Shown here in pieces: positions 12,557 to 60,873 of a stretch of 64,000 nt of DNA. The stretch lies in assembly GCA_030374765.1 (NCBI GenBank), contig JARGXX010000003.1:806001-870000 (forward strand). Reading direction: 5' to 3'. The position numbers and the translations under genes were made by a program. Origin of the DNA: Agarophyton chilense. Lineage: Eukaryota; Rhodophyta; Florideophyceae; Gracilariales; Gracilariaceae. Positions within the stretch are counted from its first letter, which is position 1, and each line of letters opens with the position of its first letter. The notes under the pieces are model-generated. The model ran no database searches. It was not told the origin of the DNA and saw nothing but the letters and a program-made list of their open reading frames with translations.

Positions 12557-13174
12557 TGTAGTATCCGCTCTACGGAGTGAGCAGACACCTGCGACAGTGT
12601 TCAGGACTGCCGAATGGGTGCTTGCGGCTAAGGGGAATGTGTGGTAGAGCACAACACCAGCGAGCTGGAATGGGGGTTTTAAGGCCCCACTCGCCAATTA
12701 GGGTGGTTGGTACTATAGAATGGACAACTACTTGTTGTAGATTGTCCGGATCTCCGGTTAAGGAATCCTGAACAAGGAACAAGTGAGTTGTGAACCCGTT
12801 TGTTGTCTCCTTTACTTTGGAGTGGGCGCTCCCTTCTGTGCCTTAAGTAAAGTGCACAGGGGTGAGCGCCGCACATAAAAATATCTAGATATAAACTTGG
12901 TTACTTGATCAACCCCACTACAGTACGGGATAATGGTTTCCACGTGGCTACTCACTACAGTATATGCGCCGTTTCCAATCCGGTATTTCCCTACAAAGGG
13001 TCGAATCGGATGCGCCGTGGCAGACCGAGGTCCCACGTGTAACATACCACCTCACGGACCATCTGCGGGGTGCCGCTTCATAACTTCATCCTAGCCGTTG
13101 CACTCAGTTATGAGTATCATTATATTAAGCCAAAAAAATCTTCCATCGGCATTCCGACAGTGCAGAACACTACA
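12557..13174 (-). repeat. 3' LTR of element B
   Basis: It starts TGTAGTATCC and ends ACACTACA, is 618 bp long and matches 21122-21739 throughout. ATTAC lies directly outside it. Confidence 0.93.
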
Positions 13175-13296: not shown

Positions 13297-14983
13297 ATGA
13301 ACCCATACGCTCCGCATAACTCCAACAACGGAGACGAACCCTCCGAGGGTCCTTATGCCATCAGTGGCTTCGATTCGCAAGCTGCGCCGCCTTCGGTCCT
13401 GCGATCAATGTGGTCTCTTCGCATGGGTTTCCAATCCTTGCCCTTACAGCCTTCGGCCTCAGGTGTGATGTCGAATGCGGCTTATGTATCCTCCGCTGGG
13501 ATCATTCGCGTGCCGTCTCGTCGGGCTCAACACAGCTATCCACATCCCACGGACTTGGTGGGACGAGACCCTGTCGACGGTGTTGACCTCTTCGTGCAGG
13601 CTCCATGGTTTGACGCAGTCGCTCTTCGCGATGACGCTTTGATCAACCGATACGTCTTCAGCGGTTACCTTCCCGATGGCCTTCCGTATGCAGCTATTTG
13701 CAGCCACGATTGTCTTACCCACTGTGCTTTGAAAGATAACGCAATTGCCCGCTATACCAACGAAAGTAGGGACGAAGCGCAAACTTGGTTCACCAAGCTG
13801 ATATACCAGCGTCTGCACCGGTTCAGTAGCACGGGCGTTCTCACTGGAGATTGGGATCTGGATCCCTGGATGGCTCGCACGAGTGGCGAAGGATACTCGT
13901 ACATTGACACCTTATACGAAGTCGACGTCGACCAATGGCGCTGCCTACGCAATGTACGCAACGCTGCACTCTGCTTTCGCCGGCCCTTGCTTCGTGCGGA
14001 CTTCCGCTTCCTCCATAAGAGAGACATTCCGTACTGGAATTATCCTCGTTGGGAACGGCGTATGAGATCCGGCTTGGGGTACCTGGTTCCATACCAAATG
14101 ATTGAGATTGATCGAATTAGGCGGAATGCTTGCGTCGAACGCTATGTCGCGCTGCCAGAACACTGGGCCGAGATGGAGAGCCCTCGTGGATGTCCGGTGG
14201 AGCTTCCTCCAGCCATAATCTATATCGGTTCCGCGTTTATCAACGACCCGTTCTCGGGATACTGGATGGTCGTGTTCTCCGAGTTCATTGCCAAGATGGC
14301 AGCGTATATCTTCTGGGATTCATACGATACCTATCGGGCTTGGTACATGTCGCCAACAGCGCGGAGATATGCTAGAGAACTCGATCGATGTTTCCCTTGT
14401 GTAGGGATCGCGTGCCAATTATGACGAATTCCTACTCCTGGCAGACTTGATCGACAGTATCCACTGGTATGGGGTTCTATTGGAGCAATCAGCTAGAGGC
14501 AAAAGCGTGCGCCATCGAGATCATTTGCCGAGACGCACAGCTAATGCTGGAGACTTTGTATGGTACAATCCCTGGACCGGCCAGATAATCACTTCTGATC
14601 AGGCTCGTGACCTTTGTGCGAGTCCTAGAGAGTGCCCTAAAAATCAGCGTACTGGATATATGTACGAATCCACACCTTCTGAGTTTGCAGACCAGGAGTA
14701 TGAAGAAGCTCCAGGTGCTGAGGCAGAACTCGATTTCGAGGATGAACCCGAACTATCCGGTACTGCGCCCATGACGGCTGCTTTAACACCAGCGGCTATG
14801 GCTTCGGGTGTCAACCCGTCGCTGGGGAACCATCATGGGTTCGCCCAACAATCGAGAAATGCGGAGGATCCCTTTTCGGCGCCGTTGAGACAATTCCTTT
14901 TAGACATGGGCTTCCCCGAAGAACAGCTCCAAGGAGATCGTGCTGATCTTACCGCCATGCTGAATAACCATTCCCGTGGGTAA
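13297..14983 (+). pseudogene. Antisense ORF of element B (one frameshift)
   Basis: This plus-strand ORF faces gag-pol and belongs to the same family as the intact one in element C. I place the start at ATG 13297 because MNPY is also the matching N-terminus in C; an upstream ATG at 13237 is in frame. The first part (13297-14424) carries APWF, RDDALI, a YQRLHRF block and LPPAIIYIGS near residue 303. A single frameshift near 14408-14415 moves the reading to the frame that holds DLIDSIHW and GDFVWYNPW and ends at 14983. The C-terminus is acidic and Pro/Ala-rich. I recognise no known domain, transmembrane segment or catalytic motif. Confidence 0.75.
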
Positions 14984-21121: not shown

Positions 21122-21739
21122 TGTAGTATCCGCTCTACGGAGAGAGAAGACACCTGCGACAGTGTTCGGGACTGCCGAATGGGTGCTTGAGGCTAAGGGG
21201 AATGTGTGGTAGAGCACAACACTAGCGAGCTAGAATGGGGGTTGTAAGGCCCCACTCGCCAATGAGGGTGGTTGGTACTATAGAACGGACAACTACTCGT
21301 TGTAGCTTGTCTGGATCTCCGGTTAAGGAATCCTGAACAAGGAACAAGTGAGTTGTGAAACCGTTTGTTGTCTCCTTTACTTTGGAGTGGGCGCTCCCTT
21401 CTGTGCCTTAAGTACAGTGCACAGGGGTGAGCGCCGCACATAAAAATATCTAGATATAAACTTGGTTAGCCGATTAACCCCTCTACAGTACGGGATAATG
21501 GTTTCCATGTGGCTACTCACTACAGTATATGCGCCGTTGCCAATCCGGTATTTCCCTACAAAGGGTCGAATCGGATGCGCCGTGGCAAACGGAGGTCCCA
21601 CGTGTAACATACCAACTAACGGACCATCTGCGGGGTGCTGCTTCATAACTTCATCATAGCCGTTGCACTCACTTATGAATATCATTATACTTGGCCAAAA
21701 AAATCTTCCATCGGCATTCCGTCAGTGTAGAATACTACA
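21122..21739 (-). repeat. 5' LTR of element B
   Basis: It is 618 bp long with the same termini as 12557-13174 and is followed by the target duplication ATTAC. Confidence 0.93.
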
Positions 21740-22361
21740 ATTACTTTAATCGTTTTTCCAAAGTGTCGACTTTATCCAAAGAACTAGAATAATACCTCAA
21801 TTTAATCAAACACATCATAATAATATCGAAAACGCAATCGATCCTAAACTGCACAAAAACGCTATTTTTGCACAAAGATCAACGTATTACACTAATCATG
21901 AGAAAGTTTTCAGATTAATAATACCTTCATCCGAACCTGTTTCATGATATTTGGATTCCATATGTCTCCTAAGTTTCTCTCTATACTTTTTTTGCGTCAT
22001 TGCTCGCTTTCTCCCAACTTCCTTACCAACTGCATATAATCTAATTTCAATTCAATTATAGTGAGCACCATCTTCGGCACGAAGTGGATGCCTTCAAACT
22101 TGCGCGTTTGTCATGGACACACAAAACAATAATATTTCGTCATAAAACTTCTCCCTCTGTCGGTATTATGACCTTATTACATTCCATAGCTGTGTTAATC
22201 CATCGTAATAATTTTTCACAATAAACCTATCCGATGAAAGCTTTTGAGTACCATTATCTTCTGATTGAAATAAGATTCCCCACATCGGTTTTTTCTTCGG
22301 GTCAAATGCTCTAACATGCTCTGAAGACCGTGGTATACCTTCTCCATGTAGACCTCCCATT
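21740..22361. other. AT-rich spacer between elements B and C
   Basis: About 620 bases separate the two elements. The right end (22216-22361) holds the tail of a minus-strand reading frame interrupted by element C, listed separately; I see nothing else. Confidence 0.5.
22216..22361 (-). pseudogene. Tail of a host reading frame cut by element C
   Basis: Removing element C and one CCATT copy joins this frame to 32829 onward without a break: the residues SDQW before the junction continue as EVYMEKVYHG after it, and the frame then stays open for about 48 codons to a stop at 22216. The product is not identified. The Trp/Tyr/Leu spacing slightly resembles the N-terminal repeat region of cullins; I hold this only as a weak idea. 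A second frame overlapping the end suggests an additional frameshift. Confidence 0.4.
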
Positions 22362-23274
22362 TGTGGAGCAAAACCCGGCGACGGGAAGTGCTCTCAAGGT
22401 GTTCGAAGCCTTGCTCCCTGGGGGAGGCAGACTCAGAGACAGAGCCCTCCGTTCCACCCGTAGTGTGGGGTGTAACTCCCACGGGGGATTCCGGCAGTAC
22501 CGACGGAGGTGAGGGGTGGAAACCGTTGGATCGGGAATGGGTATGGGTATCCCAAAGAATGGGGGAAAATCCGGCGAAGAGGAAAAACGGGGCGAGGGTC
22601 GGGCACTAACAGGCACCGGACCCGAGAACCAGAAAATGGGCGAAACAACAAAAGAAACCCAATACAGGGGCGAAAACCTGTCCTCGAAAGGAAACACAAA
22701 AAGCACGCAACAAGTAAGCAGAACCCCCACGGGGTATCGTGCACGCAGGTCGTCTGAGCGGTCCCAAGGGGGTGGTTGCACGGAACCCAAACGTGGGCAC
22801 TCTCCAAGTGGAGTCGTGTCCCTACGCAGGCGTTGCTAACCAGAGCCCGTTCCGGGTTGTAAGGCCGAAACGATGGCGACGAAGAACCTCTAAAGGTATC
22901 GAAGACCAACCTTCGTTGTCATTTACTCTGAGCTCGGACTGTCAGATCTCGCCTCCCTACGTAGGGCCCACTAACTAAACTCTACAGTAGTTCACACCTG
23001 CTCAGGGCCATAAACGTGGAGATCCCACTGCCAGGCCCCAAAAGTCCAACGTTTTACAAATATCCGAAAATCGGTGCCAAAATTAAGCCACGTGTATCAC
23101 GGGGCCAATCCAACCATGGGCCATCCGAATTTTCCCTTATAGGCGAAATATAACCGGAAAACAGTGCCACCTCAGCACACCTTAGAGGGTATCATAATCA
23201 TAACCCTCGGAGGGTTCAATCCTCATTCTATGAGTTGCATCTTCAAGTATCCCCTGACTGGGCGTTGCTCTACA
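22362..23274 (-). repeat. 3' LTR of element C
   Basis: It is 913 bp long, almost identical to 31916-32828, preceded by CCATT (22357-22361) and followed by the polypurine tract. The 158-residue frames seen inside both LTRs exist only because the LTRs are copies of each other. Confidence 0.94.
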
Positions 23275-23287
23275 TCTCCCCCTCCTT
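23275..23287 (-). other. Polypurine tract of element C
   Basis: On the minus strand AAGGAGGGGGAGA directly abuts the 3' LTR. Elements D and E have very similar tracts at the same place. Confidence 0.75.
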
Positions 23288-23482
23288 AAGACGAGGAAGA
23301 ACATTCCGAGCCGCGGGTGTCTAGCTTTCCGATCACTATACATACTTCTCCCAATGGGGTCCTTCACCACTTCTGAGGATCGCCACAAAACCGGCACATC
23401 GGTACAACTTTCTTCTACTCCTCCGACTTTCGGCGATACGCAACTTCTCGCAGCAGCGATTTCGACTAGCCCTCTCAAGGGA

Positions 23483-25210
23483 ATGAACCCGTACGTCATC
23501 AACCCACTCTCGGGGCCATCGGCCTCCGCGCCGGCGGACAACGAAGCTCCCCAGCAGGGTGGATATTTATCCGGTTTGGATGCGGCTCCGTCAGGTACCG
23601 AACCTTCCGCCTCGGCGGGCAACCGACATCCTCAGGAGGATTTGGACATCACCGCGGTGGCGTGGAACTCCGCTCATGCGATGCCCTTGGTAGAAAACTC
23701 CAGAGGTTGGATCTCAAACGAATCCTTTCGAAGGTGGAGTCCCCTTACCGATCCGGTGATATATTCCCGCGCTCCGTGGTTCCATCCGACAGCGGTTCGC
23801 GACGATGAGCTCATCGACTCCTACGTGGAGGACGGCTTATTGCCGGGTGGCCTACCTGTTGAGGTTGTACGTTCTCCCGATTGGAGGGCGCGGGTAGCCA
23901 TAGAGCCTCAGTATCTATACCGCAGTCGCGGGGAGTCCCTGGACAAGGCGCGCGCAGCGATGGCGGCTCTGGCCTACCAGCGATTGGAGAGGTCACGCTT
24001 TGACCATCTGGTTCCCCCGGAGTACGGGTTCGATGTCGCCTATTACCGCACGTACGGTGAGGTCTCCTACGGGGATAACCTGGCAGCCTTTCCCGAAGCC
24101 GAGTTCCGCGGACCGGGTTTTCCTCTCCGAGAAGATATGCTCCAATGGAGTCGTCCCATCCTTCGGGCTGAATTCAGGTACCTTCAGCGGCAGTTTACCC
24201 AGTATGGGTTCGATCGACGCGTGCGCTTCGAGCGCCTCTCGCGCTCCCGTTTCGGGTTCCTTGTCCCGTTTCCTCACGTGGAACTGGAGCGTATCCGTAA
24301 CACGGCGAAGGTTGGGCGATTCGTGCCCCTTCCAGCTTGGTGGAGTAAGGTCGAGGTCCTCCGAGGGTGCTTTGCTGAACTGCCCCCATGTATCTACTAT
24401 ATCGGGTCTCGTTTGATGCACGACCCGAACTCGAGATACTGGGCCCTCGTTGCAGCCGAGTGGGCAGCCCGCGTAGCGGCGCACCTCCTCTGGGATGCTC
24501 ATGACCATTTCCGTTTCTGGTATATTACTCCGATGCTACGGACCATCATGCGTCAGATCGACCTTGTCCCAGCGTTGGGTTCGGCCAGCAACGTGCAGGA
24601 CCTGTATCCAATCTTGGACGTGATCGACAACACCCAATGGGATCGAGTTCCAGTGGCAAATCAGCCCGCAGGGGAAGGATCCGCCCGAGACAAGTCTCCT
24701 GGCCGGTACGATCCGGGCTCCGGTAACTGGGTCTATTACAATCCCTTCGAAGGGGTTCGCATCAGCGCGGCGCAAGCACGGGCGCTGATTGACCCGCCTC
24801 GACCGATGCCGGTTGGACACCCGACGGGGTTCATTTATACCGAGGATTACGAGTACGAGCCTCCAGTAGACCTGGACGATCCAGCGTTGGATAACAAAAT
24901 GCCAGCTCCTAGTGGAGTACTCCCTGTGGAGCCATCTACACCCTTCCAACCAGTGGGAACGACCTCAGCTGCGGCGGCGAATGCATCCGGTGGCGGTTCA
25001 TCTGCTCCCCCCGGGTGGGGTGTGAACACCCTTGCGCAGGCGCCGGTTGCCACTCCGCAAGCGGATAGGGTGCGACAAGGCCTCGTGAACGCAGGCATTC
25101 CGATTCCCCCGGTTATGACGGATGTGAGCCAGATGTTGGCTTTCGCCTCGGCGTACCATCAGGGTCAGAATCCCAACGGTGGGGCGGGTCCCTTCTCGGG
25201 CTTTCCGTAG
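23483..25210 (+). CDS. Intact antisense ORF of element C (575 aa, unknown family)
   Basis: This is the only unbroken member of the antisense family. I chose ATG 23483 because its MNPY start is shared with element B; an in-frame ATG at 23354 would add 43 residues. Visible parts: a disordered Ser/Pro/Gly/Ala N-terminus, a conserved centre with RAPWF, VRDDELIDSY, LAYQRLERS, LRAEFRYLQ and FGFLVPF, LPPCIYYIGS near residue 300, NWVYYNPF near residue 415, then a Pro/Gly/Ala-rich tail. No signal peptide, membrane segment, zinc motif or known catalytic signature is seen. It starts 208 bases inside the LTR and runs toward the chromodomain end of pol. Its survival beside damaged pol suggests it is used. 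Function unknown. Confidence 0.8.
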   Translation: MNPYVINPLSGPSASAPADNEAPQQGGYLSGLDAAPSGTEPSASAGNRHPQEDLDITAVAWNSAHAMPLVENSRGWISNESFRRWSPLTDPVIYSRAPWFHPTAVRDDELIDSYVEDGLLPGGLPVEVVRSPDWRARVAIEPQYLYRSRGESLDKARAAMAALAYQRLERSRFDHLVPPEYGFDVAYYRTYGEVSYGDNLAAFPEAEFRGPGFPLREDMLQWSRPILRAEFRYLQRQFTQYGFDRRVRFERLSRSRFGFLVPFPHVELERIRNTAKVGRFVPLPAWWSKVEVLRGCFAELPPCIYYIGSRLMHDPNSRYWALVAAEWAARVAAHLLWDAHDHFRFWYITPMLRTIMRQIDLVPALGSASNVQDLYPILDVIDNTQWDRVPVANQPAGEGSARDKSPGRYDPGSGNWVYYNPFEGVRISAAQARALIDPPRPMPVGHPTGFIYTEDYEYEPPVDLDDPALDNKMPAPSGVLPVEPSTPFQPVGTTSAAAANASGGGSSAPPGWGVNTLAQAPVATPQADRVRQGLVNAGIPIPPVMTDVSQMLAFASAYHQGQNPNGGAGPFSGFP

Positions 25211-25609
25211 TTCCGCCTTCGGGCAATTGTGGAGTCCATAGCTTGGCGACAATAGTAAACTTCTGATATTTGCATAACTTCCTTTCTTCTTCCTTCCTAG
25301 GATCTTAACTTCTACTTCTCTTCTTCTTCCTTCTTAGGATCTTCTTCATCATCTTCTTCATCTTCTTCCCTTCCTAGGGTCCAATCTTCTTCTTAATCTT
25401 CTTCTCCACTTCGTGGGTCTTCTTTTCCTTTTTCATTATAAACTGTCCCGATAACCGGTGTTGTGTTCCCCGGTTAACGGCGCTAGGCCGAGGGCCAGTA
25501 GACATTCCCTCTCAATACGTGTTCTTCGGGATACTCTCCTCAATTCCTCTTCAGAGATCCAACATTTTCTTCACTTCGAGGTCGCATCCACACCAGTTCC
25601 CGTGGTGGT

Positions 25610-25957
25610 TTACCCGACTTGGGCACGATCCAGATTTGGAGGCAAGGTTACCCGAGCGCGTCGGTGATAGGATAAAACCTTAGACCTCGGAAGGTGCTCA
25701 ATGGGTTCCACTGTATCCTCCTCAGGCGAGAATCCGTACCATCGGACTTGGTAGCGAACTTCTCCCTCGGGGGTGTAGATGTGACGCACGATGCGATCGA
25801 TAACGAATTCCTGCGGGTACACTTTTCCCTGTTCGGGCTTCTCTTCCATCTTGGAACGCTGTAGTTCCCTTGAGGGTGTCAACGTAGGGTCTAGACACAC
25901 CCCGGTGGGTTCTTTTCCGTGTTGCGAGCGGGTCTCAGAACTTCGTCCAAACGGCAC
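25610..25957 (-). pseudogene. Element C chromodomain tail
   Basis: The ORF encodes FVIDRIVRHI, YQVRWYGFSPEEDTVEPIEHLP and VLSYHRRARV, a chromodomain as at the C-terminus of Ty3/gypsy integrases. One aromatic-cage-type position reads TVEP where relatives have TWEP. The integrase that should precede it is missing, so this fragment is orphaned. Confidence 0.75.
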
Positions 25958-26180
25958 CGAGTGGCCTGTGGGCTACGTTGTAACTTCCGTCTACGGGATC
26001 AAAACGGCCCAATTTTGGGTTCTTCTTAAAGCTGAGATCTTCCCGATAACAACGGTGTTCTTAGATTCTGTGACGGTTGAGAAACCGCGACGCGGTAGCG
26101 TCTCCAGTCTCAGGGGAGTAAGACTTCAACGTCAACCCGAGCTACGGGGACGAAGGTTGCTCTGGTGCAACGCGCCGTGC

Positions 26181-26317
26181 GACGGTTGGTCGTCAGAGCC
26201 TTTTGATTGGCTCAGTGAGGCGGGTTGCGCGGCGGTTGGTCGTCAGAGCCTTTTGATTGGCTCGGTGAGGCGGGTTGCGCGACGGTTGGTCGTCAGAGCC
26301 TTTTGATTGGCTCGGTG
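26181..26317. repeat. 50-bp tandem repeat in place of integrase (element C)
   Basis: Copies begin at 26181, 26231 and 26281 with the core GCGGTTGGTCGTCAGAGCC and continue TTTTGATTGGCTC; the third copy is incomplete. Units differ at only a few bases. Confidence 0.85.
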
Positions 26318-26481
26318 CCATTCGACATGGGCCACATAAATGCGCGGGCGCCGGTTGCCACTCCGCAAGCAGATATGAGGTGGCGCTTTAGGCACGCGCT
26401 AGCACTCTCCTGAGCTGTCCCCGACGGGTCTCACTCATTTCTTTCCAATTCCTGAGGGTTCCAGTGTCTCCATAAAAGTTC

Positions 26482-29400
26482 CTATTCCCATTCCGTAACG
26501 GAGAGCCAAATTTGGTCAACCTCGTCGTCGAGGTCTTCCCCGTGTGGGTCCGCTGACACAGCTCGTTGTCGAGAAAGCGGGGTTTGAGTGTGCGACACCT
26601 CAGTGTCTCTTCCGCGGCGGCGGGTGATCGTCGGCTCTATAGGCGTTCCGGGTGTGGAGTTCTTTACACGACTCTCCCTAGGCGGGTTTTCGTCATCTTT
26701 TCTGACGTCGTGCTCGGCTGGGTCGGCGGTGATGTCGCTACCCATACGCTGGGGTTGTGACTTCTCTGTCGCCGGCTCGGTCAGGCTCGCCGTCTCACTG
26801 TGAGAACTAGATTCCCTGTTAGGGCGACTGGCTGACGCCGAAACATCGTCCTGCGAAGGAACTAAGTCCTCATCCCCCTCCTTAGGCGGAGAGCCAGGAG
26901 GCTTGACTACCTTCGGTGGGGGAGTAACTCTGTAAGAGTTCGTTGGCTGGGCCCTTGAGGGAGCGGGCCCAGGTTCGGGAGTATCCGAAGTTAAAGAGCC
27001 GGTCGGCGAATTTAGACTCTCGTTGACGAGTATGTCGTCACAAACATCATCCGTCAGCGGTTGAGCTCCTCCCTCGAGGTCCGATTCCATAAAGCATGGG
27101 ATGTCATCGTCCTCGTAGGGTTCCGTTTCCGCTGTGGTTCCCAAGCGGGATAGTGCATCAGCCTGAGTGTTCAGCTTCCCTTTCTTGTACAGGATCTCAA
27201 AGTCGAATTTCGACAGTCGGAGACGCCAGCGCATAAGGTGGCCCGAGGGTTCGGAGATCTCCAGGAGCCAACGCAAGCATGCGTGGTCCGTATGGACTTT
27301 GAAACGAGTACCCATCAGATAGGGGCGAAGTGTAGCTAAGGCCCACACAACGGCTAAACATTCTTTCTCGGAGACCGAGTAGTTCCTTTCATGGACATTC
27401 AGGGAACGTGACTAGTACCCAATAGGGTGACGTTCACCATCCTCAGAGGATTGGAACAGTGCCCACCCTACTTGGTTTGCACTAGCATCGGTGTCCACTT
27501 CGTAAGGGAGCCCAGGATTGGGTAGAGCCAAGATTGGCGGTGATGTTACTGCATTCACCAGTGCCGTGAAGGCAGACGCTTCCGCGTCGCCAAAAGGTTC
27601 CAGTTCAATTGGTTGTCCCTTCGTCAGGAGCCTGTTGAGGGGGGTGGCAATATCCGCAAAGTTCGGGACGAATCGGCGATACACGTTACACAGACCTAAG
27701 AAGGATCGCAACTCCGTTTGAGTTTTCGGGTGTTTTGCTTCCTTCAAGGGTTTCACTCGTACTTCATCGATTGAAAGCTGTCCGGGACGGATGATATGAC
27801 CCAGATATTTAACCGAATCGGTGAAAAACTCGCACTTCTTGAGTTTCAAGGTGATTCCCGCGTCGCGAAGTATCTTCATTACGTCCCTGACGTGTTCGAG
27901 GTGATCATCCAGGTTGTTTGAGAAGACAATAATGTCGTCTAAATACACTAGACACGTCCTCCACTTGAAGGGAGCCAACAGAATGTCTATCGCCCGTTGA
28001 AACGTTGCGGGGGCATTTGTCAACCCAAAAGGCATCCTCCGGAATCGGAAAAGTCCTTGATGACACACGAAAGCCGTTTTTTCTCGATCTTCCTCCCTAA
28101 TATGGACTTGCCAGTAGCCCGAATTGGCGTCAAGGGTAGAGAAAACAGTAGCGCTCCGAAGGGAGTCGATGCATTCGTCCATCCGAGGGATCGGGTACTC
28201 ATCCTTAATGGTTACCTCGTTCAGGCGTCTGTAATCGATGCAGAAACGCCACGATCCATCCGGTTTCGGAACTAACACCACTGGTGAGGCCCAAGCGGAC
28301 TGGGCAGGTTCAATTACGCCCGCTTTAAGCATCTTCTCCACCTGAGATTTCTCCTCTTCCCGAGCTTTCGGTCCAGCCCTGTAAGGGTGTTGGGCAATAG
28401 GCCGAGTGTTCGGTAACAAGTCGATGCGGTGTTCTGTAATCCCAATAGTTCCAAGGGAGCCATCCCACATGGGGGTGAATTCACGAAGCATGTGCCTCAG
28501 CTTCTCCCGATGAGATGCGGGTACATGGTTGAGATCCCATTTTTCCAATTCCTGAACAGGATCCGTCTGGTCTGCTCCTGTGATAGGGGCCGTAACCTCC
28601 TGAGGTTTAAAGTGTTCAGCGTGTGGAGCTGCAGTCGTATGCTCACCGTCTTCCGCGATTTCGGCAGTGTCCTCCCCCTACTTAGGGTCCGCCACACCAA
28701 GGACCTCTGCGATAGAGATCTTTGTAGGTACGACCGCATGCGGGTGTGGAAGAACAGAACCCAGGATCTGGTGTTTGACCAAATGCTGCGTTGTCTTTCC
28801 AAAGTTGGCTACCAAAACCTTGAAAGGTTTATCCGGTTCCACGGAGACAACCCCATTCGCAAGGGCGAGTTGACGCCGCGTATACAGAGACGGGTTCGGT
28901 TGTACCACATGCACACCAATTTGCTTGGTAACAACTGTGACCCAAACCTGGGTTTCTGGCGGGATAGCCACTGACTTCGCAACCTTTACCCGTGTAGACA
29001 CCGGGTCCTTCTTCACAGATTCCTGCGCGACGGGGAGAGGAACGCGTGTTCGCGCTGCTCCCTGTAAGAGTTTACGAACGATTGGGATCGTTAACCCGTC
29101 TTCGAGTTCCACAGTTCTATTCCGAGGACGGATGGCTTCCACGAAGCGGTCGCAAAAGTCACAACCCAGTATGACTGGTGCTGCAAGTGACTTGCATAGA
29201 ATAAACTCCAGTTGAACGAGATAGGAGCCTAACCTCACCATGAGGGAAATTGTACCCAGTGTCCGTAGCGGGTTGTTGTTCGCATCGGCGATATCCAAAC
29301 GTGGACCGGTACTAACTTGGACCCGGAGCAGCGGGGGTAACAATTCCACATGAATTAAGTTAGGAGCGGCTCCTGTATCCAGGACAGATATTTGACGAAC

Positions 29401-29655
29401 CATAAACTGGTTGGACAGGCCTAAGTCGGCGAATACTTTATAATTCCGCTTGGCCATTACCATAACTCGATCCGGAATACGGAGATTACGGGACCGTATC
29501 CACGGGCGACGGAGGACACTAAAGTATCCCGAGTTAACGTCGGTGTCAGCCGTTTTCCTTGAAAGGATTGTCACAGCTGGGGAGCGAAGCTGGAGCGCCT
29601 CGGGCGTCTTCAACTCCGGCTTAGAAGACGCCCCTCCCGCAGGGGAGACTCCCAA
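26482..29655 (-). pseudogene. pol: Element C pol: protease, RT, RNase H (two TAG stops)
   Basis: One frame runs from 29655 to 26482 with in-frame TAGs near 28678 and 27412; the second replaces the Trp of the conserved GYWSRSL. Protease active site: VLDTGAAPNL. RT blocks: FCIDYRRLN, LDANSGYWQ, MPFGLTNAPATFQRA and YLDD near 27930, all intact. RNase H shows VDTDASANQV, EKECLAVVWALA and TDHACLRWLL. A disordered tail of about 200 residues follows. Pol is in the -1 frame relative to gag, so frameshifting between gag and pol is the expected expression mode. No integrase follows. Confidence 0.87.
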
Positions 29656-29777
29656 GTTTAGTTTTTCGAAGCCGACCCCACCGAATTCGGTGCAGCTGCC
29701 TCGAAGGGGACCGGTTGTTCTCCGTTTGCGGGTACAAGTTCTGTATCCCTGTCAGCAAGGTGAGCTCGGAGTATCCT

Positions 29778-31688
29778 TTATTCCTCATAGGACCTACTCG
29801 GGACTCGAGCTTTCTCCTCAGGGGTCAGAGCCTCGTACTGAGCGATAATTCGTGAACCCTCCCGCAGGGGAAATGTGCTGTCTGGTGCTTTGTGACCACG
29901 GAGGTAACACAAATAGCAAATCAGCTCTGCCGGGTTCGGTTGTGGACGTGAATCCATGCGACGTGGTGCTGTATCCCTCCATCCAGGGCGAGAGAACCGA
30001 GCAGCGGTATTCGCAAAAGGTAGCGATGCGGCTGGCACCCTCCGTTCGCGGGTATAGAGCGCAGGGTCTTCATCCGTAGTCGGAGCGGATGTCGACGGCA
30101 ACTCAGACGTACCCATAGATTCGGGGTTACTTCCCATGAAGTGAATGTTATCATTGACCCCCAAAGGGGCAGGGCCTCCCGCGAGTGACAAAGACGAGGT
30201 ACCTCCATCGGCGAGGAGTGCACGTGTCGGCCGACTCTTTTGGTTCTGCCGGGCACGGAGAGTATCCCCCTCAGCCTGGGCGTACTGAACCAATTCCAAG
30301 TAGGTCAGCTTGCGCTTCTCTTCCCGATGTCGGGCAACCAATGCCCTTATCGAAGGGTCCAAACCATCCACAAACATGGAGAATCTCTCGTAGGCGGGGA
30401 ATACATTCCCGCATCGGTGAAACGCTTTATTCAAGCGAGTTGAATACACCGTTTCGGTTTCCATCGGCTTCTGCCGCGTATCCCTTAATGCAAGGATTGC
30501 TTCCTGAATCGCATTTCCAGTAGCGTATGACCTCAAGAGGTACTGCACCGCTTCGGGCCAGCACGTGACTCCCCCTTCCCAGGCTCGGGATGATCCACGG
30601 ACGGAGTTGAACTGGTCTTCAGCCATTCCCTTTAAGAAATAGGGTAATGCAAGATACGCTTGCGCTTCACTCATACCGAGGATGTCAGCCTCCTGGACGA
30701 ACCTCGCAAGGAAATCGAGCACCAGAATTGGGTCTGTTCCTGTGAACTCCCTCTTCTGTAGGGTGATGCTCAGCCTTTTGATGTAGTCCTTGACCTTACC
30801 CGTTCCGCGGGATGTTCGATCTCCCGAAGGGTTATCCAACCGGTAATAGCGGTACGATAGCAGCTTCCGATAGAGAGGATTCGTCGGCTTCAGCTCCCTT
30901 AATCCAAGGGGTTTCCTACCCTTCTTCCGGGTACGGATTGCCCCTTGAGAGGTGTAAGTAGCCTTCGACCGAGTCGCCCGGGATGACCGGCGTTCATCTT
31001 CACTATCCGAAGATTCGGAGGACGAACTCGATGGCGAGCGATTGGGATCGGAATCCGATAAATCCTCTTGGAGGTGAACCCTCTTCTTGGACTTGCGGCG
31101 GTCCCGTTTAGCGGAGCGGTGTTCTTCGTCTTCCGAAACGTCGGGTTTATCCTTCGAGGCTTCTGTGTCTCCGTCCATACGGATAATGGCCTCGACGGTG
31201 TCCAGCCGAGCTCGGAAGCGTTCCGCTTGCACGCGGTGTTCCTCCACGAGGCTCCGGTACTCCTGGATAAAGACCTCAGGGATACCAAAGCTTTCCAAAA
31301 GGGAGTTCACATCCCTCCTCAGGGTACGAAGGTCATCGGCGACTCCCCGCACCTGGGCGTCCTCCACCTTGAGGCGGAGGGTAGTAACCTCCTGAAGGAG
31401 CTCGATGTGAGCCGCGTTGGCGATATCAATTCGAGTCTCCAGGCGCTGTAATTCAGGGTCGGCCCGACTTCGGGGTGCTGCTGAGGGGGTCTCCACCACT
31501 GGAGCTGGGCCCACAGCCACGACCTCTCGAGGACCTGAAACCACTGAGGGTGCTCTCCGAGTGTCCGGATCGATACCGGAATCGTTCCGACCTTCGGGAA
31601 TAGAGCTCCTCGACCTAGGCGGGGCCGGGGGCACTGAATCCGCTTGACGGTTCGATCCAGTCCTGGAACCACTGGTAGGCGGCGACAT
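29778..31688 (-). CDS. gag: Element C gag (636 aa)
   Basis: The full-length gag starts at 31688 with a Ser/Pro-rich head, then a leucine-rich coiled-coil-like region, an acidic and Arg/Lys/Ser-rich linker, and a capsid-like region (YLALPYFLKGMAEDQF, CWPEAVQYLLRSYATGNAI) that matches B. The C-terminal zinc knuckle begins CYLCYLRGH at about residue 591, but the fourth ligand position holds Ser, not Cys, so it is probably impaired. The start lies 209 bases from the primer binding site. The protein would form the particle and bind RNA. Confidence 0.85.
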   Translation of the reverse strand: MSPPTSGSRTGSNRQADSVPPAPPRSRSSIPEGRNDSGIDPDTRRAPSVVSGPREVVAVGPAPVVETPSAAPRSRADPELQRLETRIDIANAAHIELLQEVTTLRLKVEDAQVRGVADDLRTLRRDVNSLLESFGIPEVFIQEYRSLVEEHRVQAERFRARLDTVEAIIRMDGDTEASKDKPDVSEDEEHRSAKRDRRKSKKRVHLQEDLSDSDPNRSPSSSSSESSDSEDERRSSRATRSKATYTSQGAIRTRKKGRKPLGLRELKPTNPLYRKLLSYRYYRLDNPSGDRTSRGTGKVKDYIKRLSITLQKREFTGTDPILVLDFLARFVQEADILGMSEAQAYLALPYFLKGMAEDQFNSVRGSSRAWEGGVTCWPEAVQYLLRSYATGNAIQEAILALRDTRQKPMETETVYSTRLNKAFHRCGNVFPAYERFSMFVDGLDPSIRALVARHREEKRKLTYLELVQYAQAEGDTLRARQNQKSRPTRALLADGGTSSLSLAGGPAPLGVNDNIHFMGSNPESMGTSELPSTSAPTTDEDPALYTRERRVPAASLPFANTAARFSRPGWRDTAPRRMDSRPQPNPAELICYLCYLRGHKAPDSTFPLREGSRIIAQYEALTPEEKARVPSRSYEE

Positions 31689-31896
31689 GCAGCAGACACG
31701 ACACCGACGATTCGGGGTAACAATGAAATTCGATCACGAGATTCCCGGAGAACGGATGACGTAACACAAAACAAAAATAAAAACCAATTCCACCCTTTCC
31801 AAAGGGGACCACTACAACAAATCTTCACGACGGTGCTTCCTCTTCCAAGAGATATTCCAACACGTGGATAACCAACCCAAAAGTCCGAGAACGGAT

Positions 31897-31913
31897 TCTA
31901 AGTCGGGAGACCA
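31897..31913 (-). other. Primer binding site of element C
   Basis: The plus strand reads TCTAAGTCGGGAGACCA, a tRNA 3' end with CCA, two bases before the LTR. The same 17-mer occurs in element D. Confidence 0.85.
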
Positions 31914-31915
31914 CT

Positions 31916-32828
31916 TGTGGAGCAAAACCCGGCGACGGGAAGTGCTCTCAAGGTGTTCGAAGCCTTGCTCCCTGGGGGAGGCAGACTCAGAGACAGAGCC
32001 CTCCGTTCCACCCGTAGTGTGGGGTGTAACTCCCACGGGGGATTCCGGCAGTACCGACGGAGGTGAGGGGTGGAAACCGTTGGATCGGGAATGGGTATGG
32101 GTATCCCAAAGAAAGGGGGAGAATCCGGCGAAGAGGAAAAACGGGGCGAGGGTCGGGCACTAACAGGCACCGGACCCGAGAACCAGAAAAGGGGCGAAAC
32201 AACAAAAGAAACCCAATACAGGGGCGAAAACCTGTCCTCGAAAGGAAACACAAAAAGCACGCAACAAGTAAGCAGAACCCCCACGGGGTATCGTGCACGC
32301 AGGTCGTCTGAGCGGTCCCAAGGGGGTGGTTGCACGGAACCCAAACGTGGGCACTCTCCAAGTGGAGTCGTGTCCCTACGCAGGCGTTGCTAACCAGAGC
32401 CCGTTCCGGGTTGTAAGGCCGAAACGATGGCGACGAAGAACCTCTAAAGGTATCGAAGACCAACCTTCGTTGTCAATTACTCTGAGCTCGGACTGTCAGA
32501 TCTCGCCTCCCTAAGTAGGGCCCACTAACTAAACTCTACAGTAGTGCACACCTGCTCAGGGCCATACACGTGGAGATCCCACTGCCAGGGCCCAAAAGTC
32601 CAACGTTCTACAAATATCCGAAAATCGGTGCCAAAATTAAGCCACGTGTATCACGGGGCCAATCCAACCATGGGCCATCCGAATTTTCCCTTATAGGCGA
32701 AATATAACCGGAAAACAGTGCCACCTCAGCACACCTTAGAGGGGATCATAATCATAACCCTCGGAGGGTTCAATCCTCATTCTATGAGTTGCATCTTCAA
32801 GTATCCCCTGACTGGGCGTTGCTCTACA
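31916..32828 (-). repeat. 5' LTR of element C
   Basis: It is 913 bp long and nearly identical to 22362-23274; CCATT follows at 32829-32833. Confidence 0.94.
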
Positions 32829-33184
32829 CCATTGATCGGAGTATTTTTCTAATAAATCTCCACTGTCCATTATATAATTATTCATGGCATCTTTTCTCGT
32901 CTGCAACGTATTTTTGTGATTTTTTAAATTAAAGATAAATAAAAAAAATTTTGAGCCAGGGGCATGTGAAGGATTATTAATTGTCGTTCCATTTGAGAGT
33001 CAGAATTTTTCGTTTTAAACCATAAAGATATGTTTGCCGCTAAAAGTTCTTTTGCCTTAGGCCATGCCACTAATTGGACGAAAACATTGTTGGAAGAAAA
33101 TATCTGTCGCGTATCCACAGAATTAAAAAATAATTTGAATCCCAAACTGCGGCGCAAAATACGCTTCATCGTCCAAAGCCCCAT
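32829..33184 (-). pseudogene. Interrupted host reading frame between element C and a solo LTR
   Basis: A minus-strand frame near 32829-32923 (with MDSGDLLEKYSDQW) reads across the empty site of C into 22361. A second frame, 33184-32924, precedes it in another phase; TTGCAG near 32900 could be an old splice acceptor joining them. Its start coincides with the solo LTR target site at 33180-33184, so the LTR cut the gene as well. The protein is not recognised; cullin-like spacing is only a weak possibility. Confidence 0.35.
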
Positions 33185-35560: not shown

Positions 35561-37647
35561 AACTTGCCTACGTACGTTGGTACGTTTCTTGCACAAGGCG
35601 GCGCGTGGGAGAGGGTTAGCAAAGCTCGCGCGCGCGCGCTGCCGTGAACGCGGCAGCAATGCAAACTTATTCCAAAGCGCCACCAGCTCTCTCTCTTTCT
35701 CAGCAAGTTACATGCCCACAAAGGCGTGCAATGCACCACCACCACCACCACCACCAAACCACGTCGTCGTCGTCGTCGTCGTCGTCATGGCCGTCGTGCG
35801 TGAAGGTGGATGCGAGGCGCGGATGCGAGTGTGAGTGTGACCACGTCGTACTGCACGTCGCGTCATGCGCGCCGCGCCAACAACAGCGCGTGCAATTGCG
35901 TAGCGCGCAGGTGGGGTGCTCACAACCAAGCCAAACTCTTCGCCTGTTGCCGCTACGCTGCGTCTGGTGCACGGCGACGACGACGACGACGACGACTACG
36001 ACGACGCGCACACCGTCACACATGCTTTCCGCGCACGTCTGCGCGCAACGCAACGCGCCATGAACGACGGCCGCGACGACCGACGTTGCAACGGCGGCCA
36101 CCACCACAGAGAACCATAACGATATCCCACACACGCACGCACGCCTTCATGCATGCATGCATGCATGCATGCACGCTCTCGGCGTAGCGCGGCGGCGCCG
36201 GGGGGAAACGACAGTGCAACAACGGCCAGAGCGATTAGGGTTGGCGGGTTGTCTCAAGTGGCGCAGCGAGTTTGGACGTCTCTCCCTGCGCGGCGACGCG
36301 CGGCGCTTGTGCGGTGCGGTGCGCCAGCGGACGGGCGACAAGCGCGGCACCGCCGCCGCAACCACGCAGCACGCGCGACGCCGACGAAGACGACGACAAG
36401 AGAAGGCGCGCCGCCGCCTCGCGCAGAGCGTGTACCGCGCGCCAGTGGCAGACGACGCGGTCGAATTACAAGCCGCAAACGCAAACGCGCGGCGAAAAAA
36501 AAGGGGCGCACGCGGCGTGCACGCGCAGCAGTGCCGCACAGTGCGCTCGGGTGGGCGGGGGCGCGCACACACACAGCGGGGGGGGGGGGGCTTCGGCCAC
36601 GGCGTCGGCGTGTTGCTACACAACACAGCGTGTACAGCCGCCGGTCGGGGGCACACGACGGGGGCGCGGCAGCAACGGCGGCGGCGGCCCGCGGGCCGAA
36701 TGTGTGGTGGTGGCATTGGGCGCGTGACGCGCGCTGACACGCGCGGAGAGCGCGGCCGACGACTGAGCGCGTCTCAATTGAAAGCGAGTGCACGGCACGC
36801 GTCACGCGCCACGTCATCCAGCGCGCACACGCGTGCGCGCTGGCGCCGCTCTCGCGCCGTCGTTTTTGTCAGTGCCGTCGCCGCGCGCGGGGGCGGGGGG
36901 GTCACGCGGCGCTCCGTGTTGCGCTTTGCTCATCACGTCGCGCGCGCGAAGAGCGCCTGCGCGCCGCGCGCCCTTCGTGTGCGCTCGGTTGCCCCCACCG
37001 CTTCCCCCCCCCCCCTCCCCCCACCTCTTCCCCCTCCCCACCGTCGCTCCCCCCATCTTTACCCGCCCCGACTGCCGCGCGTCGACGCCCCTCCCGTCGT
37101 CGTCGCCGCCGCCGCCGCCCCCTCCGTCGCGCCCCCCCCCCCCCCCCCCCCACCCGCGGGCGTCTCCGTGTCTCCCTCGCTTCTCCGCCCCGTCGTTTCG
37201 CTGCTGCTGTTCGCTGCTTCCCGCCCCGCCACAAGCGCCCCGGTCGAGTGGCCCCGTACCCTCTCGCGCGCGCGCGCGCGCGCGCTCTCCCCCCCTACTC
37301 TCACCGCGCGCCTCCGCTCTCCGCGCGCCACCGCCACCGCTCCCGCTCCCCCGACACACACACACACACACACACCGCGCGCTACTTAACCGCGCCCGAT
37401 CGTGCTCGCGCCCCTCCGTCGCGCGTGTAGCGCCCTCCCCTCTCCTCTCCTCCCCTTCTCCCCCACCCCCACCCCCCTTCCCTTCCTCCCCCTCCCCCCC
37501 CCGCTCCGCTGCGTCGCTCCCCGCTCCCCCCCCGCGCTTCCTTTTCCGCCCGCGCGCGCCGCCCCGCTCTCCCACGCCGCGCGCCCTTCGTGGTCAGTGC
37601 CCCACCCCCCAAAATCGTGCCGTTTTTCGCGCCTTCCGCCCGCCGCC
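35560..37647. other. GC- and CpG-rich tract with simple repeats upstream of the C2H2 gene
   Basis: Base composition changes sharply near 35.6 kb from AT-rich to very GC-rich. The tract holds CAC and GTC trinucleotide runs (35738-35790), GAC runs (35970-36000), an ATGC run (36149-36173), poly-G (36578-36590), poly-C (37132-37151), a CG run (about 37265-37283) and a CA run (37353-37374). Long open frames on both strands reflect lack of stop codons in GC-rich sequence. It probably includes the promoter and 5' UTR of the following gene. Confidence 0.6.
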
Positions 37648-38070: not shown

Positions 38071-38107
<37 letters not shown>

Positions 38108-46326: not shown

Positions 46327-46877
46327 TGTGAATTAAACCAAACAAGTAGCGAAGGATTGTAAAACCTGAAAGTTCTAGGGAGTAGGCGATGTGCTCGAAC
46401 TAGAAGGAGGAGATTGAGAATACCTTTAATGTATGACAGCACCAGCCATTGAAGGGTGCGAAAGGAACGGCAGGCTTACTGAGACAACGTTGGTAGACGG
46501 TGATGCACAGCGCACGCCGGGCTTAAACCCCATAAAGACCTTTACTTGCCTTTATGGTCGATTGCAGAAACCAAAAGGGGAAAAAAGTAGTCTAGTAGGG
46601 GCTTAATATTACAATTGTGACCGAGGTTGCCATGCTTGGTGAAGATATATATCTCATCGGCCACCCGATTTTCGGTGGTGCTCTTCACCACGTGGCCACG
46701 ATGAGGTGCACTTGAGAGGCGCCTCCCTGTCTACTTATTCCTATCATTCTAATAATAAGTTATCGAAAAGCTAAAATAATTGCTACCTGAACCACTGTAG
46801 TACGCGGTGCATCCCGGCAACCAAACAGGACCACCGCGTGGAATCATTACCTCCTTAGTGTAGCTCACTTTAATACA
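46327..46877 (-). repeat. 3' LTR of element D
   Basis: It starts TGTGAATTAAACC and ends TAATACA, and aligns with 56295-56849 across its length. Confidence 0.8.
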
Positions 46878-47606: not shown

Positions 47607-49603
47607 ATGTCTATTAAGGGTCCCTGCGGTTTGAACCACACCCGTGATATCTCGAAGCCTCTGACCCGCTCCCGCTCTAGAGGTCGTGGTCGTGGCCAGC
47701 CCCTTACCGCTCTGGTTTTCTCGTCATCCCTCATCCCTGGTGCATCATTCGGTTTTCTTCTAGGTTCCGGGCATTACGATCCATATTTGTTCAGCACACC
47801 GCCTTCCACCCTCAACCCTTTCGAGTTGCTCCAGAAGGAGCTCAACGCACTACGCTTGGAGGCCACCTCTCGGCCGGTCCCAATCAGCACCGCTGGGTTG
47901 AGTTTGCATTACAAGCATCCCACACTTCCTTTTTATGTCTCATGGAATCGTTGAGACATTCACCATCTTGGCGCCGTGCCACTAGCTCCACCGATGCAGT
48001 CCAGGGAGAATCTTTCACGTCCCGGAAGACATGCTTGCTTTCAGAAGCGTCAGAAGCATTCACCATTTCGGTTTTTTTTCCCAAACACCATCTCAAGCAA
48101 TTTACCATATCTGCGGGGCAAGGACGAGTTTTTCTACTTCCGCAACCTGGTGGGACTGTTGCACCGTATCGATCCGTCGACGACGTGGCTGAAGCTTGAC
48201 TGCAAAATGGTGATATTTAACACACCCTTCGATACCATTCACTGGTTGGATCGTAACCGTTGGGGCCAGGACGCTGCCACCGAGGCCTGGATCCGTCGTC
48301 GGAGTAGTCTCGTCCGAACCATGCATCGTTTCCATTGCACAGAGTTCTTTTATCGAACGACTGAGAATCGCCGCAAATGGTATGTTACCCGTTCTGACTG
48401 GTGGGAGGGCTTCGAGGAACCTCAATGGTTGTGTGTTCCGACTCCTCCCGTGCTGGCATACTTCGGCAGCCATTGCGACCGAAGCAAGGGGTACTATCAT
48501 ACAATTTGGTCTGTGGCTCTCGCGGAGTGGTCCATTTTAGTGACCCTTTTCGCTGTTAAGGCCTCCTGTGACGGTATTACCTCGGACAGACGTTGCTCTT
48601 ACCCCCGGATTACCAGCTACGGTTTCTTACCTGTTGGCCGCATCTTCCGGATTCCCCGCTCCACCGTGGATTTTATACGCCAAATTGATGTGGAGGAAAT
48701 TCTCCTCGGTACTGAATAGAGCTGGAGACTTACTTCGAGGTGTCTCTGTCGCATCCGTGGAAGGATGACCAATGTTGGGGTGTTTTGTACTTCGAGAAGC
48801 CATCCATCCCCAGTCAGGTGAACCTGGTATTTCCAGGAGATGAGCCCATTTGTGGGTCCCCTCATCGCTGTATCCATGAGTTGGAGATTGCGGAAGGTAT
48901 TACCCCCGTGCCTTCGACCCCTGAACTTGATGGTTCTGCTTGTATTTCTTCTATCTGCGTCACCCGTATTCTCTGTTCGGTTCCTGGTCCTTCTGCTGGG
49001 CCTGTACAGTCCCACATGGTGAATCGTATCACAGTTGGCGTTGATGAGTCTGTTACAGCTCTTTCTCTTAGTGGTGCGCTCATGAGGATCCAGCTCGTTT
49101 GCGTCTCTCGTCTCAAGCGTCCCGGTCCGCGCTCTCTTCAAGAAGCTCTCGCGCTTTTGGAGCAGCTCATCTCTCGGCACCCAGACTATATCTCCGCTAT
49201 CAACCAAGCGGTGGCCTTCCGTAATCGGGTTCAGGCCGGGATGTACCAGGCGGTCACGCACCACGTTGCGTATCTCAGCACCACAGTGGAGCGAGCGGAC
49301 ACTTCGAGCAATCCTCTCGTGGGCACCACGGTCGGTTCTTTGCTGGCTTCCGCCTGAAATTACCCTGTGGGAAACGTGCCGATGACCATGCCTGAATCTT
49401 CGCCCTTCCATGCTCCTCCATCCCCTTCGGGTACCTCTTCCGGTCCGCCGCCGTTGTCTCCGACTGCTCAAGGTTCTGCTCCTAACTGGTCTAGTGTGGG
49501 CTCACAGTCCCATACTCCGAAACTTCCTGGTACTGGTTCCAGGCCTTTCGGAGGACCGTCTACCATTCCTGGCGTGGACCCCTTCCTGGAGGGGTCTTTG
49601 TAG
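47607..49603 (+). pseudogene. Antisense ORF of element D (two stops, one frameshift)
   Basis: The likely start is ATG 47607 in a good context (GCCACCATGT). The frame runs to 48719 with one TGA at about 47952, then shifts near 48715 and continues to 49603 with one further TGA near 49357. Family marks: TPPVLAYFGS near 48444 with a following ALAEW segment, and WGVLYFE about 111 codons later, matching PPCIYYIGS and WVYYNPF of C. The tail is Pro/Ser/Gly-rich as in C. The N-terminus is Arg/Ser/Gly-rich and differs from the others. Compared with gag-pol of the same element, this ORF is far less broken. Confidence 0.7.
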
Positions 49604-58369: not shown

Positions 58370-58906
58370 AGGATTCGGCCGCCACGGCGAAGTCCAGATG
58401 GCCTCATGCTTGACCCAGGGGACGCGAGCACTTCGTTGTTCCCGGTATAATTGGGCGCGACGGGACGTCGCGTCGTTATCGCCCGCGGGGATGCGGGGAA
58501 GCGTGAATTGACCATAGGCGCCGGAGTGCAATTAATTTGCCTAAGAATTGAAACTCCTACGCGCCGTGAGCGCTGGCCATAGGTTCATCGCCGGCGCATT
58601 CCTTGCGTCGCGTTGCCGAGATGGTCCATTGGCTTCTTCTTCTCTGACGGTCACTGGGGCCTTCCTTAGTCTCCGTTCCTCCTTTGGCGAACCTCCGCGT
58701 TTCGTCCACAGTGGCTCACGCCTCTCAGTCCGTCTGGGTTGATTCCGTCACCTCGCCTTCCCATCGTGGTACTTTTCCAATGGTCGCGCGCGATTCCGAA
58801 CTCGCCTTATAAGCCCGTCAGATATGCCATTCTCCCTCCGGACTTTGTCGCTTCCGTTGGGCATCCTATTCACTTCCCGGCGGACCAGCCTGTGGGCAGC
58901 GGCACC

Positions 58907-60873
58907 ATGGCTTCGAAAAACCAAGCGGGGAGCTCTTCGGGATACCAAGTGGCTTACGAACGTCCCAGGGACGGTTACGATCATACCATCGGACGGAATC
59001 CGCGGGCAGTTCATCATGACATGCTCCCGTCTTCTCTGGAAGAATAATAGCGGTTCAGTCATATGTATCTCGACGCCCGAAAGTTTGCCAAGATACCCGA
59101 TTTCCGGAGGGGCAGCAAGAACGCGCGAACCGTCCCGTGGTATAACCGATTGTTGCATTGTCCTGTGGATCGGCGTTTGGCAACGCGATGTCGCACTTTC
59201 ATCCAAGCGGACATGCCATACGTCCGCTGTGAGGAGGAAGCCGAATACCAGTTCAGGGTCAACAAACTCCTTTCGGATCTATACACGGACTTCATTTCGC
59301 CACATGTGCGATTTCCTCCCGCGGGTCACAATCTCTTGGCTCTTATGTGCTTTCAGGCGCCGTATGACCGCCTGTTTTGGATGTCCAATAAAGTCTATTG
59401 GAACGATATGCACGAGCCCGATGGTCATTTGCGTCAATCCCTGGGGTTCTTCTTTTGTTGGCACCAGATGGAGTTCCACGACATGAGCGCAGACAAACGT
59501 CTTCCGTTATATCCTTCGCTTCCCCACGAATATGAAAACCAATGGGCCATGTATTGGCGTGTATCGTCGCTCCTTTTGGTTCCCACGCCGTCTGTGGTGG
59601 CGTATTACTCGTCCGAACTCATGGGCGATGACAATGACTCAAGGTCGTGTCTGTCCTGGCAGGTACTCCTCGTTGAGTTCGGCTTGATGTCCCTCTTGGC
59701 CTTCCGGGATACAACGAAGTACGAAATTCTTGGTAATGTCCGTTCGAAGGATTGGAGGGTGGGGTACGATGAGAACATAGCCAGTCCTCGAGGTCGCCTA
59801 ATCCCGCTCCCAGACATCATTATCCGTTTCCTAAGGAACCTGGGCATACAAAACATCGTCCGCGGGATCCAGTTCGACGTCGAAGAGACCGAGGCCCTTT
59901 TGTATCAGGTCCTACAAGTGAAGTGGGGCAAGACTAAAGGTTCCTTTGGTATGAATGGGATACGGATTCGTTTACGCCGATTCCGCTGCATCCGCAGGGT
60001 CGGGACGGCGCCCGTGCCTATCCCGCCAAGTCCTTGAGGAATCAACCATGGGGCATTCCGAGGGGTCATGTGCCCGACGACTATCTGAAGGCCATTGGTT
60101 TCGATCCTATTTGCTTCGAGCCTGATGTGGAAGCCACGTCGTTGGTTCCTGCTGGTATGTCCGACGGAGAATCCTTCGGTGAAGATCCCTTTGTCCTACC
60201 CTTAGAGGGCGTTAGTCCTCCGGTCGGGTCCGCTGTTGTGTTGCCGACCGCTTCCCCTTCTCCATTTCCTCCAAGCGCTGCTCCTCAGGATGAGCTCTCG
60301 TATGAACCGCCCGTCGCCCAAGTGAACAACCCTCCTGGCGAGGTTATTGTCGAAGCCGGAATTCCTGGAGGCGATGTACTTGCTCAAACGTCCACTGGGG
60401 GCGTCGACATCGCTCCGTCTTCTCCATTGCCAAAATTTCCTGCTTCGGTCCCGGCTGCAGCCGCGAATCTCGTTCATGTCTGCGGTACCGTTCGTATAAC
60501 GGCCTCGATGGACATTGCCACAGTCCTTATGGAAGCCTGCTCCTGGGGGAGTCACTCGGCTCGCTACGACGCGTTTGTCCAACAGGGTCAGGATGTGAAG
60601 ACCGCCATGGTCAATATCCTGCAGCAGAATGCGCAGGGTATGTCCCAGAGGGTTACTGCCGACTTGGATGCCCGGTATGGTCTCAATTTGAGTGACTGGG
60701 ATGCTTCCGATGGTGGCAATAGTTTCTCAGGTGAATCTCCGCCGAAGAAGCGTGCTTGGCTCGCTAGGGCCAGTTCTAGTCGTCCAGGTGGCTCCTCGGG
60801 TGACCCTGGTCACGGTTTCGCTTCTGCAGGTTCAAGTGAGGACGACGGAGTTACACCTGCGCCGCCCCCGTGA
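58907..60873 (+). pseudogene. Antisense ORF of element E (stops and one frameshift)
   Basis: The likely start is ATG 58907 in a strong context (GCACCATGG). Two adjacent stops (TAA TAG at about 59046-59051) are followed by the same frame, 59063-60037, which holds VPWYNRL and VPTPSVVAYYSS near residue 228. Near 59945 the family alignment shifts frame: the other phase reads FLWYEWDTD, the counterpart of WVYYNPF, and continues openly to 60873. The C-terminus is longer than in the others, with a Pro/Ser region, a helical segment and PPKKRAW, which could be a nuclear import signal. It is convergent with pol, with 172 bases between the ends. Confidence 0.7.

Follow-up and report, generated by a model that had tools for sequence, protein, structure and literature searches.

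What is the long plus-strand reading frame that lies opposite to gag-pol at the 3' end of several retrotransposons of the red alga Agarophyton chilense? The question is raised by a window of 64,000 nucleotides (contig JARGXX010000003.1, positions 806,001 to 870,000), in which the first-pass annotation had described a large antisense open reading frame (ORF) in each of four chromodomain Ty3/gypsy elements, B, C, D and E, between the 3' long terminal repeat (LTR) and the chromodomain end of pol. The explanation that we favour, with moderate confidence, is an element-encoded antisense accessory gene with its own promoter, ancestral to B/C and D/E, whose product would be a trans-acting nuclear protein. 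It is grounded in the position of the gene in B, C and D, in homology, in selection, in the presence of the gene throughout the genome in family C, and in red-algal relatives. The earlier observation was confirmed in part, the reservations concerning the second of two proposed motifs and the frames of B, D and E, which are broken.

Position and homology of the antisense gene

In element C (22362-32828), a Ty3/gypsy element with gag-pol on the minus strand, the antisense ORF (23354-25210, plus strand) is open over 618 codons. From the methionine at 23483, which is conserved in C, B and the database protein P0001, 575 codons remain, and the gene is placed at 23483..25210 on the evidence of the ORF, the family comparison and selection, with an in-frame ATG upstream at 23354. 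It lies between the 3' LTR (22362..23274, minus strand) and the chromodomain, since the chromodomain match at the pol end of C was located at 25658..25810 on the minus strand through similarity to B and E. The same placement between pol and the 3' LTR, opposite to gag-pol, was found in B and D, whose 3' LTRs lie on the minus strand at 12557..13174 (partner 21122-21739, 94.3% identity) and 46335..46877 (partner 56303-56849, 83%, with degenerate ends). For E, whose partner LTR falls outside the window, the orientation and the pol side are established. As in chromoviruses, a chromodomain ends pol, the match passing the Pfam cut-off of 25.1 bits in E (28.6), falling just below it in B (24.5) and being weak in D (15.3).

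The large ORF proposed for each of the four elements is thus found in C, whereas stops and frameshifts break the gene in B, D and E, of which open relatives are present elsewhere in the genome. In B, a frameshift splits the gene into a first piece (13297..14421) and a second piece in another frame (14384..14980), both on the plus strand and recognized by similarity to C. The gene region of D (approximately 47607-49603) has several breaks and contains an open piece at 47976..48716 (plus strand). That of E (approximately 58907-60873), likewise with several breaks, consists of a piece at 59063..60034 and a C-terminal region in another frame at 60034..60873, also on the plus strand, which carries a PPKKR-type stretch.

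The four elements belong to different families, as had been proposed, with reverse transcriptase (RT) identities of 40-58% (pairwise, 202 common columns). The antisense protein of C shares 39% identity with that of the first B piece (E-value 1e-58 for the pair), and the regions of B that match C are 13567-14421 (39% identity, 2e-53) and 14384-14980 (26%, 8e-12). Plain BLASTP was insufficient for C against D and E, giving a best E-value of 0.02 with the D piece, at a PxPxxxYxGS-like motif, and nothing better than 0.35 with the E pieces, so that profiles were needed; these drew on open relatives of D type and E type found elsewhere in the genome (80 Mb, 135 contigs). Profile-profile comparison, which had been set as the test of the relation, links all families, with E-values of 2.7e-8 for B/C and D, 2.3e-5 for B/C and E, and 1.8e-14 for D and E (hhalign probabilities of 95, 76 and 98; 242, 151 and 308 aligned columns, respectively). 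As controls, reversed profiles reached 0.08-0.15 and 30 shuffles of each pair no better than 0.016, 0.13 and 0.07, so that 0.016 is the best value among 90 shuffled controls overall. The PxPxxxYxGS-like motif (C residues 343-352 of 618) lies within the aligned part of all three comparisons and stands as a common motif. The second motif proposed, WVYYNP-like (C residues 459-464), is conserved between B and C but unconfirmed between B/C and D/E, because it lies beyond both spans of C aligned with D and E (residues 172-431 and 283-433); the D-E alignment covers a tryptophan-rich stretch of its own, which is not aligned with the WVYYNP stretch of B/C. RT distance sums and antisense match strengths both group B with C and D with E, which is the single branching that four families allow to be tested, and this agreement is as expected for one inherited gene. 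The profile relation, the substitution ratios described below and the shared branching support the earlier proposal of one inherited element gene, and descent from one ancestral gene is probable.

Selection, copy number and linkage to reverse transcriptase

The ratio of non-synonymous to synonymous substitution rates (dN/dS) was calculated pairwise by the Nei-Gojobori method in each frame, with codons containing stops or gaps excluded. Copies of C (the window copy and seven of at least 76 copies, 28 pairs) gave 0.51 in the proposed frame, while the two remaining frames of the plus strand gave 1.13 and 1.08. The corresponding values were 0.55 against 0.94 and 1.03 for B (the window copy, 29 loci and L074-L076, that is 33 sequences and 527-528 pairs), 0.38 against 1.06 and 1.19 for E (the window copy and 29 loci, 435 pairs), and 0.47 against 1.11 and 0.79 for a D-type subfamily (L069-L072, 6 pairs). 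Between B and its 611-aa subfamily (B611) the ratio was 0.15, a rough value since dS is 1.85 and near saturation, while the other frames still gave 1.22 and 1.66. The expectation of the first-pass annotation that dN/dS across copies would lie below 1 was borne out in the proposed frame, with 0.38-0.70 within families against 0.79-1.66 in the other plus-strand frames. Stops per codon were also rarer in frame (0.011 in B and 0.010 in E) than in the other plus-strand frames (0.035-0.048), and 41 of the 76 scored C copies were stop-free within the match when counted by hand. Ratios of about 0.5 are also expected if many of the changes arose after insertion and were unconstrained. Judged by these substitution patterns, the antisense frame is under purifying selection at the amino-acid level.

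Protein searches gave at least 76 C-type, 109 B-type, 123 E-type and 150 D-type matches, all of them minimum counts. A whole-genome pattern search for family C markers, allowing up to three mismatches, found the antisense gene 246 times, RT 278 times and the control not at all. An RT marker is listed on the expected strand, at a distance of 3.5-5.3 kb, for 65 of the 100 antisense markers listed, and for two an opposite-strand RT marker lies within 6.5 kb. In the comparable part of the RT list, 64 of 96 markers are conversely accompanied by a listed antisense marker, and the gene is present in most family C copies. That RT copies on some contigs appeared to be without the gene is partly an effect of which matches were listed, as C4, C8 and C77 are shown by the pattern search to carry it; contigs C96 and C111 lie outside the antisense-marker matches listed.

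The spacing of the 65 listed pairs falls into two classes, with 52 at 5.0-5.3 kb and 13, including the window copy, at 3.5-3.9 kb, the shorter of which is consistent with internally deleted copies. Since these 13 pairs share the short spacing and the window copy is without an integrase core, the shortened class may spread with integrase supplied from elsewhere. Family C as a whole does not lack integrase, as first considered, because copy L078 has the core between flanks that are joined at approximately 26992-26995 in the window copy. A preference of deletion derivatives for the antisense gene is unsupported, with 35 of 100 listed antisense markers and 32 of 96 listed RT markers having no listed partner.

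Candidate promoter, protein product and alternative explanations

In the proposed mechanism gag-pol would not be the only transcription unit of each element. A further one, driven by a short promoter located in the leader beside the 3' LTR, would express a protein gene that faces the opposite way and occupies the interval from the chromodomain to this LTR. The gene would have been present in the common ancestor of B/C and D/E, inherited with pol and kept under selection, and it is moderately likely that its product is imported into the nucleus and influences in trans the transcription or silencing of the element, or nuclear entry of the integration complex. Such a role has been proposed for plant GENE23 and reported for retroviral antisense proteins.

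The leaders of B, C and E were analyzed for TATA-like boxes, from which the antisense gene may be transcribed. The candidate box of E, TTATAAG (58807..58813, plus strand), lies 100 bp before the conserved Met, is intact in 26 of 29 other copies and is the most conserved of 164 leader 7-mers; the pattern TATA[TA][ATG] occurs in the E leader at 28 of 30 loci, compared with 2.1 expected from shuffles. The same pattern is found in the B leader at 19 of 30 loci against 4.7 expected, 16 of these lying 78-81 bp before the start of the match. The B copy of the window reads TTATAGA, which is intact in none of the 29 other B loci, 14 of which have TTATATA instead, so that the window copy is probably mutated at this site. 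In C, a TATA-like TATACATA (23337..23344, plus strand) is situated 146 bp before the conserved Met and is intact in six of seven other copies.

The clues to function come from short stretches of the protein. A PPKKR-type stretch, resembling a nuclear localization signal (NLS), is present in 20 of 30 E-type loci compared with one of 30 on the other strand (17 compared with none for a narrower pattern; among the 20, one is oddly placed and one reads PPKNR), and it also occurs in two A. chilense proteins. D-type proteins carry RGRGRGG or a similar run followed by a basic stretch. These stretches are the sole hints to function and differ between the families. As had been noted at the outset, no domain is recognized: Pfam searches gave none for C (E-value ≤0.001) or for L070, L053, L075 and P0001 (E-value ≤1), with neither Transposase_28 (PF04195) nor bZIP among the matches, and PHROG and PDB sequence searches returned nothing significant. 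The database relatives comprise 14 proteins, of which 11 are from A. chilense and the remaining three are P0001 (from an ENA contig), P0003 (from a Trinity transcriptome) and P0014. A nuclear accessory role would be the most likely one, favored by the NLS-like and basic stretches and by the parallel with antisense genes of plants, among which GENE23 of Grande is reported as nuclear (PMC7264820). More tentatively, these proteins could form a separate red-algal family of nuclear regulators, for example anti-silencing or transcription factors, that predates the split between B/C and D/E.

Several observations weigh against an accessory gene with its own promoter and a nuclear product. The TATACATA box is not conserved above the mean of the C leader, and the strict pattern TATA[TA][ATG] occurs in one of eight C copies against 1.3 expected; transcription of the gene is a prediction from sequence. 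The NLS-like stretch is confined to E-type and RGRGRGG to D-type proteins, the C protein having neither, and isoelectric points of 5.1-5.8 mark the examined proteins of C, B type and E type as acidic overall. Two AlphaFold2 models (from 8 and 7 sequences; mean predicted local distance difference test scores of 47-48) are too poor to interpret, and Foldseek found no significant fold match to PDB or viral models (best E-values 2.0 and 1.3). The transcriptome match P0003 is a short ORF of 263 aa. With regard to selection, three B611 copies (3 pairs) gave only 0.70 against 0.89 and 1.11, and the within-family ratios may be too low, because the copies are the best in-frame protein matches, a ranking that favors few amino-acid changes and stops.

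Among the alternatives, a structural protein (envelope-like, movement-like or a second capsid-like protein) that is encoded antisense by chance is unlikely, if the least so. It would suit the low-confidence models, which are mainly helical with disordered tails, and the single moderately hydrophobic stretch of D- and E-type proteins (KD19 maximum 1.75-1.82). This hydrophobicity is, however, borderline for a transmembrane segment, and B and C reach still lower values (1.0-1.2). The basic stretches in D- and E-type proteins suggest nucleic acid or the nucleus as a target, and the Pfam, PHROG and PDB searches lend it no significant match. Recent passage of a captured host gene between element families, rather than ancestral presence, is improbable. 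In its favor, the searches took host and element copies together; against it, four families carry the gene in the same orientation and, where checkable, at the same position, and its branching equals that of RT, even though four families give one branching only. Still more doubtful is an active product consisting of the antisense RNA itself, acting as double-stranded RNA or by interfering with the sense transcript; reports on LTR elements describe their antisense RNA as regulating the elements or triggering silencing (PMC7264820; PMC12786077), but selection here acts on the amino-acid sequence. Finally, that the frame is no gene at all, being open through base composition or a shadow of sense-strand selection, can be practically dismissed, because although minus frames 1 and 0 of the C copies gave dN/dS values of 0.54 and 0.78, a shadow frame sharing third codon positions is expected to look low, the minus strand is not open (over the C gene, the five other frames reach open runs of 103-180 codons at most, against 618), and the cross-family homology with its controls, together with the ratio of 0.15 across subfamilies, is judged to refute it.

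The remaining features of the window copy of C are those of an LTR retrotransposon. Its LTRs, of 913 bp each (5' LTR at 31916..32828, minus strand), are 98.8% identical across a 918-base match, and the element is flanked by a 5-bp CCATT target duplication (22357-22361 and 32829-32833). A purine-rich stretch resembling a polypurine tract, read from the sequence, adjoins the 3' LTR at 23275..23290 (minus strand). The order on the minus strand is gag, protease, RT, RNase H and chromodomain, comprising a putative gag ORF (29778..31688), assigned by position and similarity to B and giving no match in a Pfam search, a protease-region ORF (28678..29655) with a weak aspartyl protease match (E-value 0.086), the RT ORF (27412..28548), and the RNase H end (26482..27348), where the integrase core is missing at the break. 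Seven other C copies align from 22358-22362 to 26671-26710 with 93.6-96.6% identity. Copy L077, of C type, is without the stretch from protease through RT (window approximately 26992-29643). A 50-bp tandem repeat of 2.8 copies (26179-26317) lies between chromodomain and RNase H. In the interval from the stop codon of the antisense gene to the chromodomain end there is a long pyrimidine-rich stretch (25240-25450), which is purine-rich on the sense strand and might serve as an additional polypurine tract or belong to a 3' end. Elsewhere in the window, element A (1-4479) is a fifth, different element with gag-protease and RT, whose antisense gene is not assessable because its 3' part lies outside. 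The window also contains a host-like ORF with C2H2 zinc fingers (37402-39021), near long C-rich and CCG-rich runs, and an ORF with a partial alternative oxidase match (41136-42074, minus strand). In the assembly, contig C39 has 14 of 15 phycobiliprotein matches, as for a red-algal plastid, and light-harvesting matches are on other contigs, from which the host is taken to be a red alga.

Comparison with known antisense genes

Extra antisense ORFs in some plant Ty3/gypsy lineages, which the first-pass annotation had named as known, are documented as antisense additional ORFs (aORF-3R) of maize Grande, rice RIRE2 and Silene Retand (PMC7264820). Gene23 of Grande is transcribed from a promoter upstream of the gene, and its product is nuclear (PMC7264820). 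Retand is described as a non-chromovirus lineage, with a Transposase_28 antisense ORF in 97% of clusters (PMC11963269). Outside plants, the fungal element Boty likewise carries an ORF in antisense in the space from pol to the 3' LTR (PMC7264820). The algal gene resembles the plant aORF-3R in lying antisense to gag-pol between pol and the 3' LTR, and the Boty ORF in arrangement, a likeness by description and not by sequence. In contrast to Retand, the algal elements have chromodomains and gave no Transposase_28 match, and it is by such description that the plant and algal proteins are set apart.

The HBZ protein of human T-cell leukemia virus (HTLV) is a bZIP protein that overlaps sense genes, whereas the antisense gene of C stays clear of the chromodomain and gave no bZIP match in the Pfam searches. 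Retroviral antisense genes are read from the 3' end (PMC7264820), and APH-2 of HTLV is described as nuclear and binding regulators (PMC11963269).

No red-algal element with an antisense gene was found in the open-access literature, most subscription journals lying outside the search, and as far as this literature shows, an antisense protein family of its own in chromodomain elements of red algae, with signs of selection and with separate promoter-like boxes, is new, the arrangement itself being already known from plants and the fungal Boty. On the best reading, the algal gene is an accessory gene of the antisense kind seen in plant Grande, RIRE2 and Retand and in fungal Boty. Antisense accessory genes have so far been described in flowering plants and a fungus, and the red-algal family offers an independent case in which to study their function, with measurable selection and high copy number. 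If its members are indeed nuclear regulators kept since before the B/C and D/E split, this kind of gene would have arisen in elements of a lineage remote from land plants. Should the plant and algal proteins be unrelated, the arrangement arose more than once and must pay; should they be related, it is very old.
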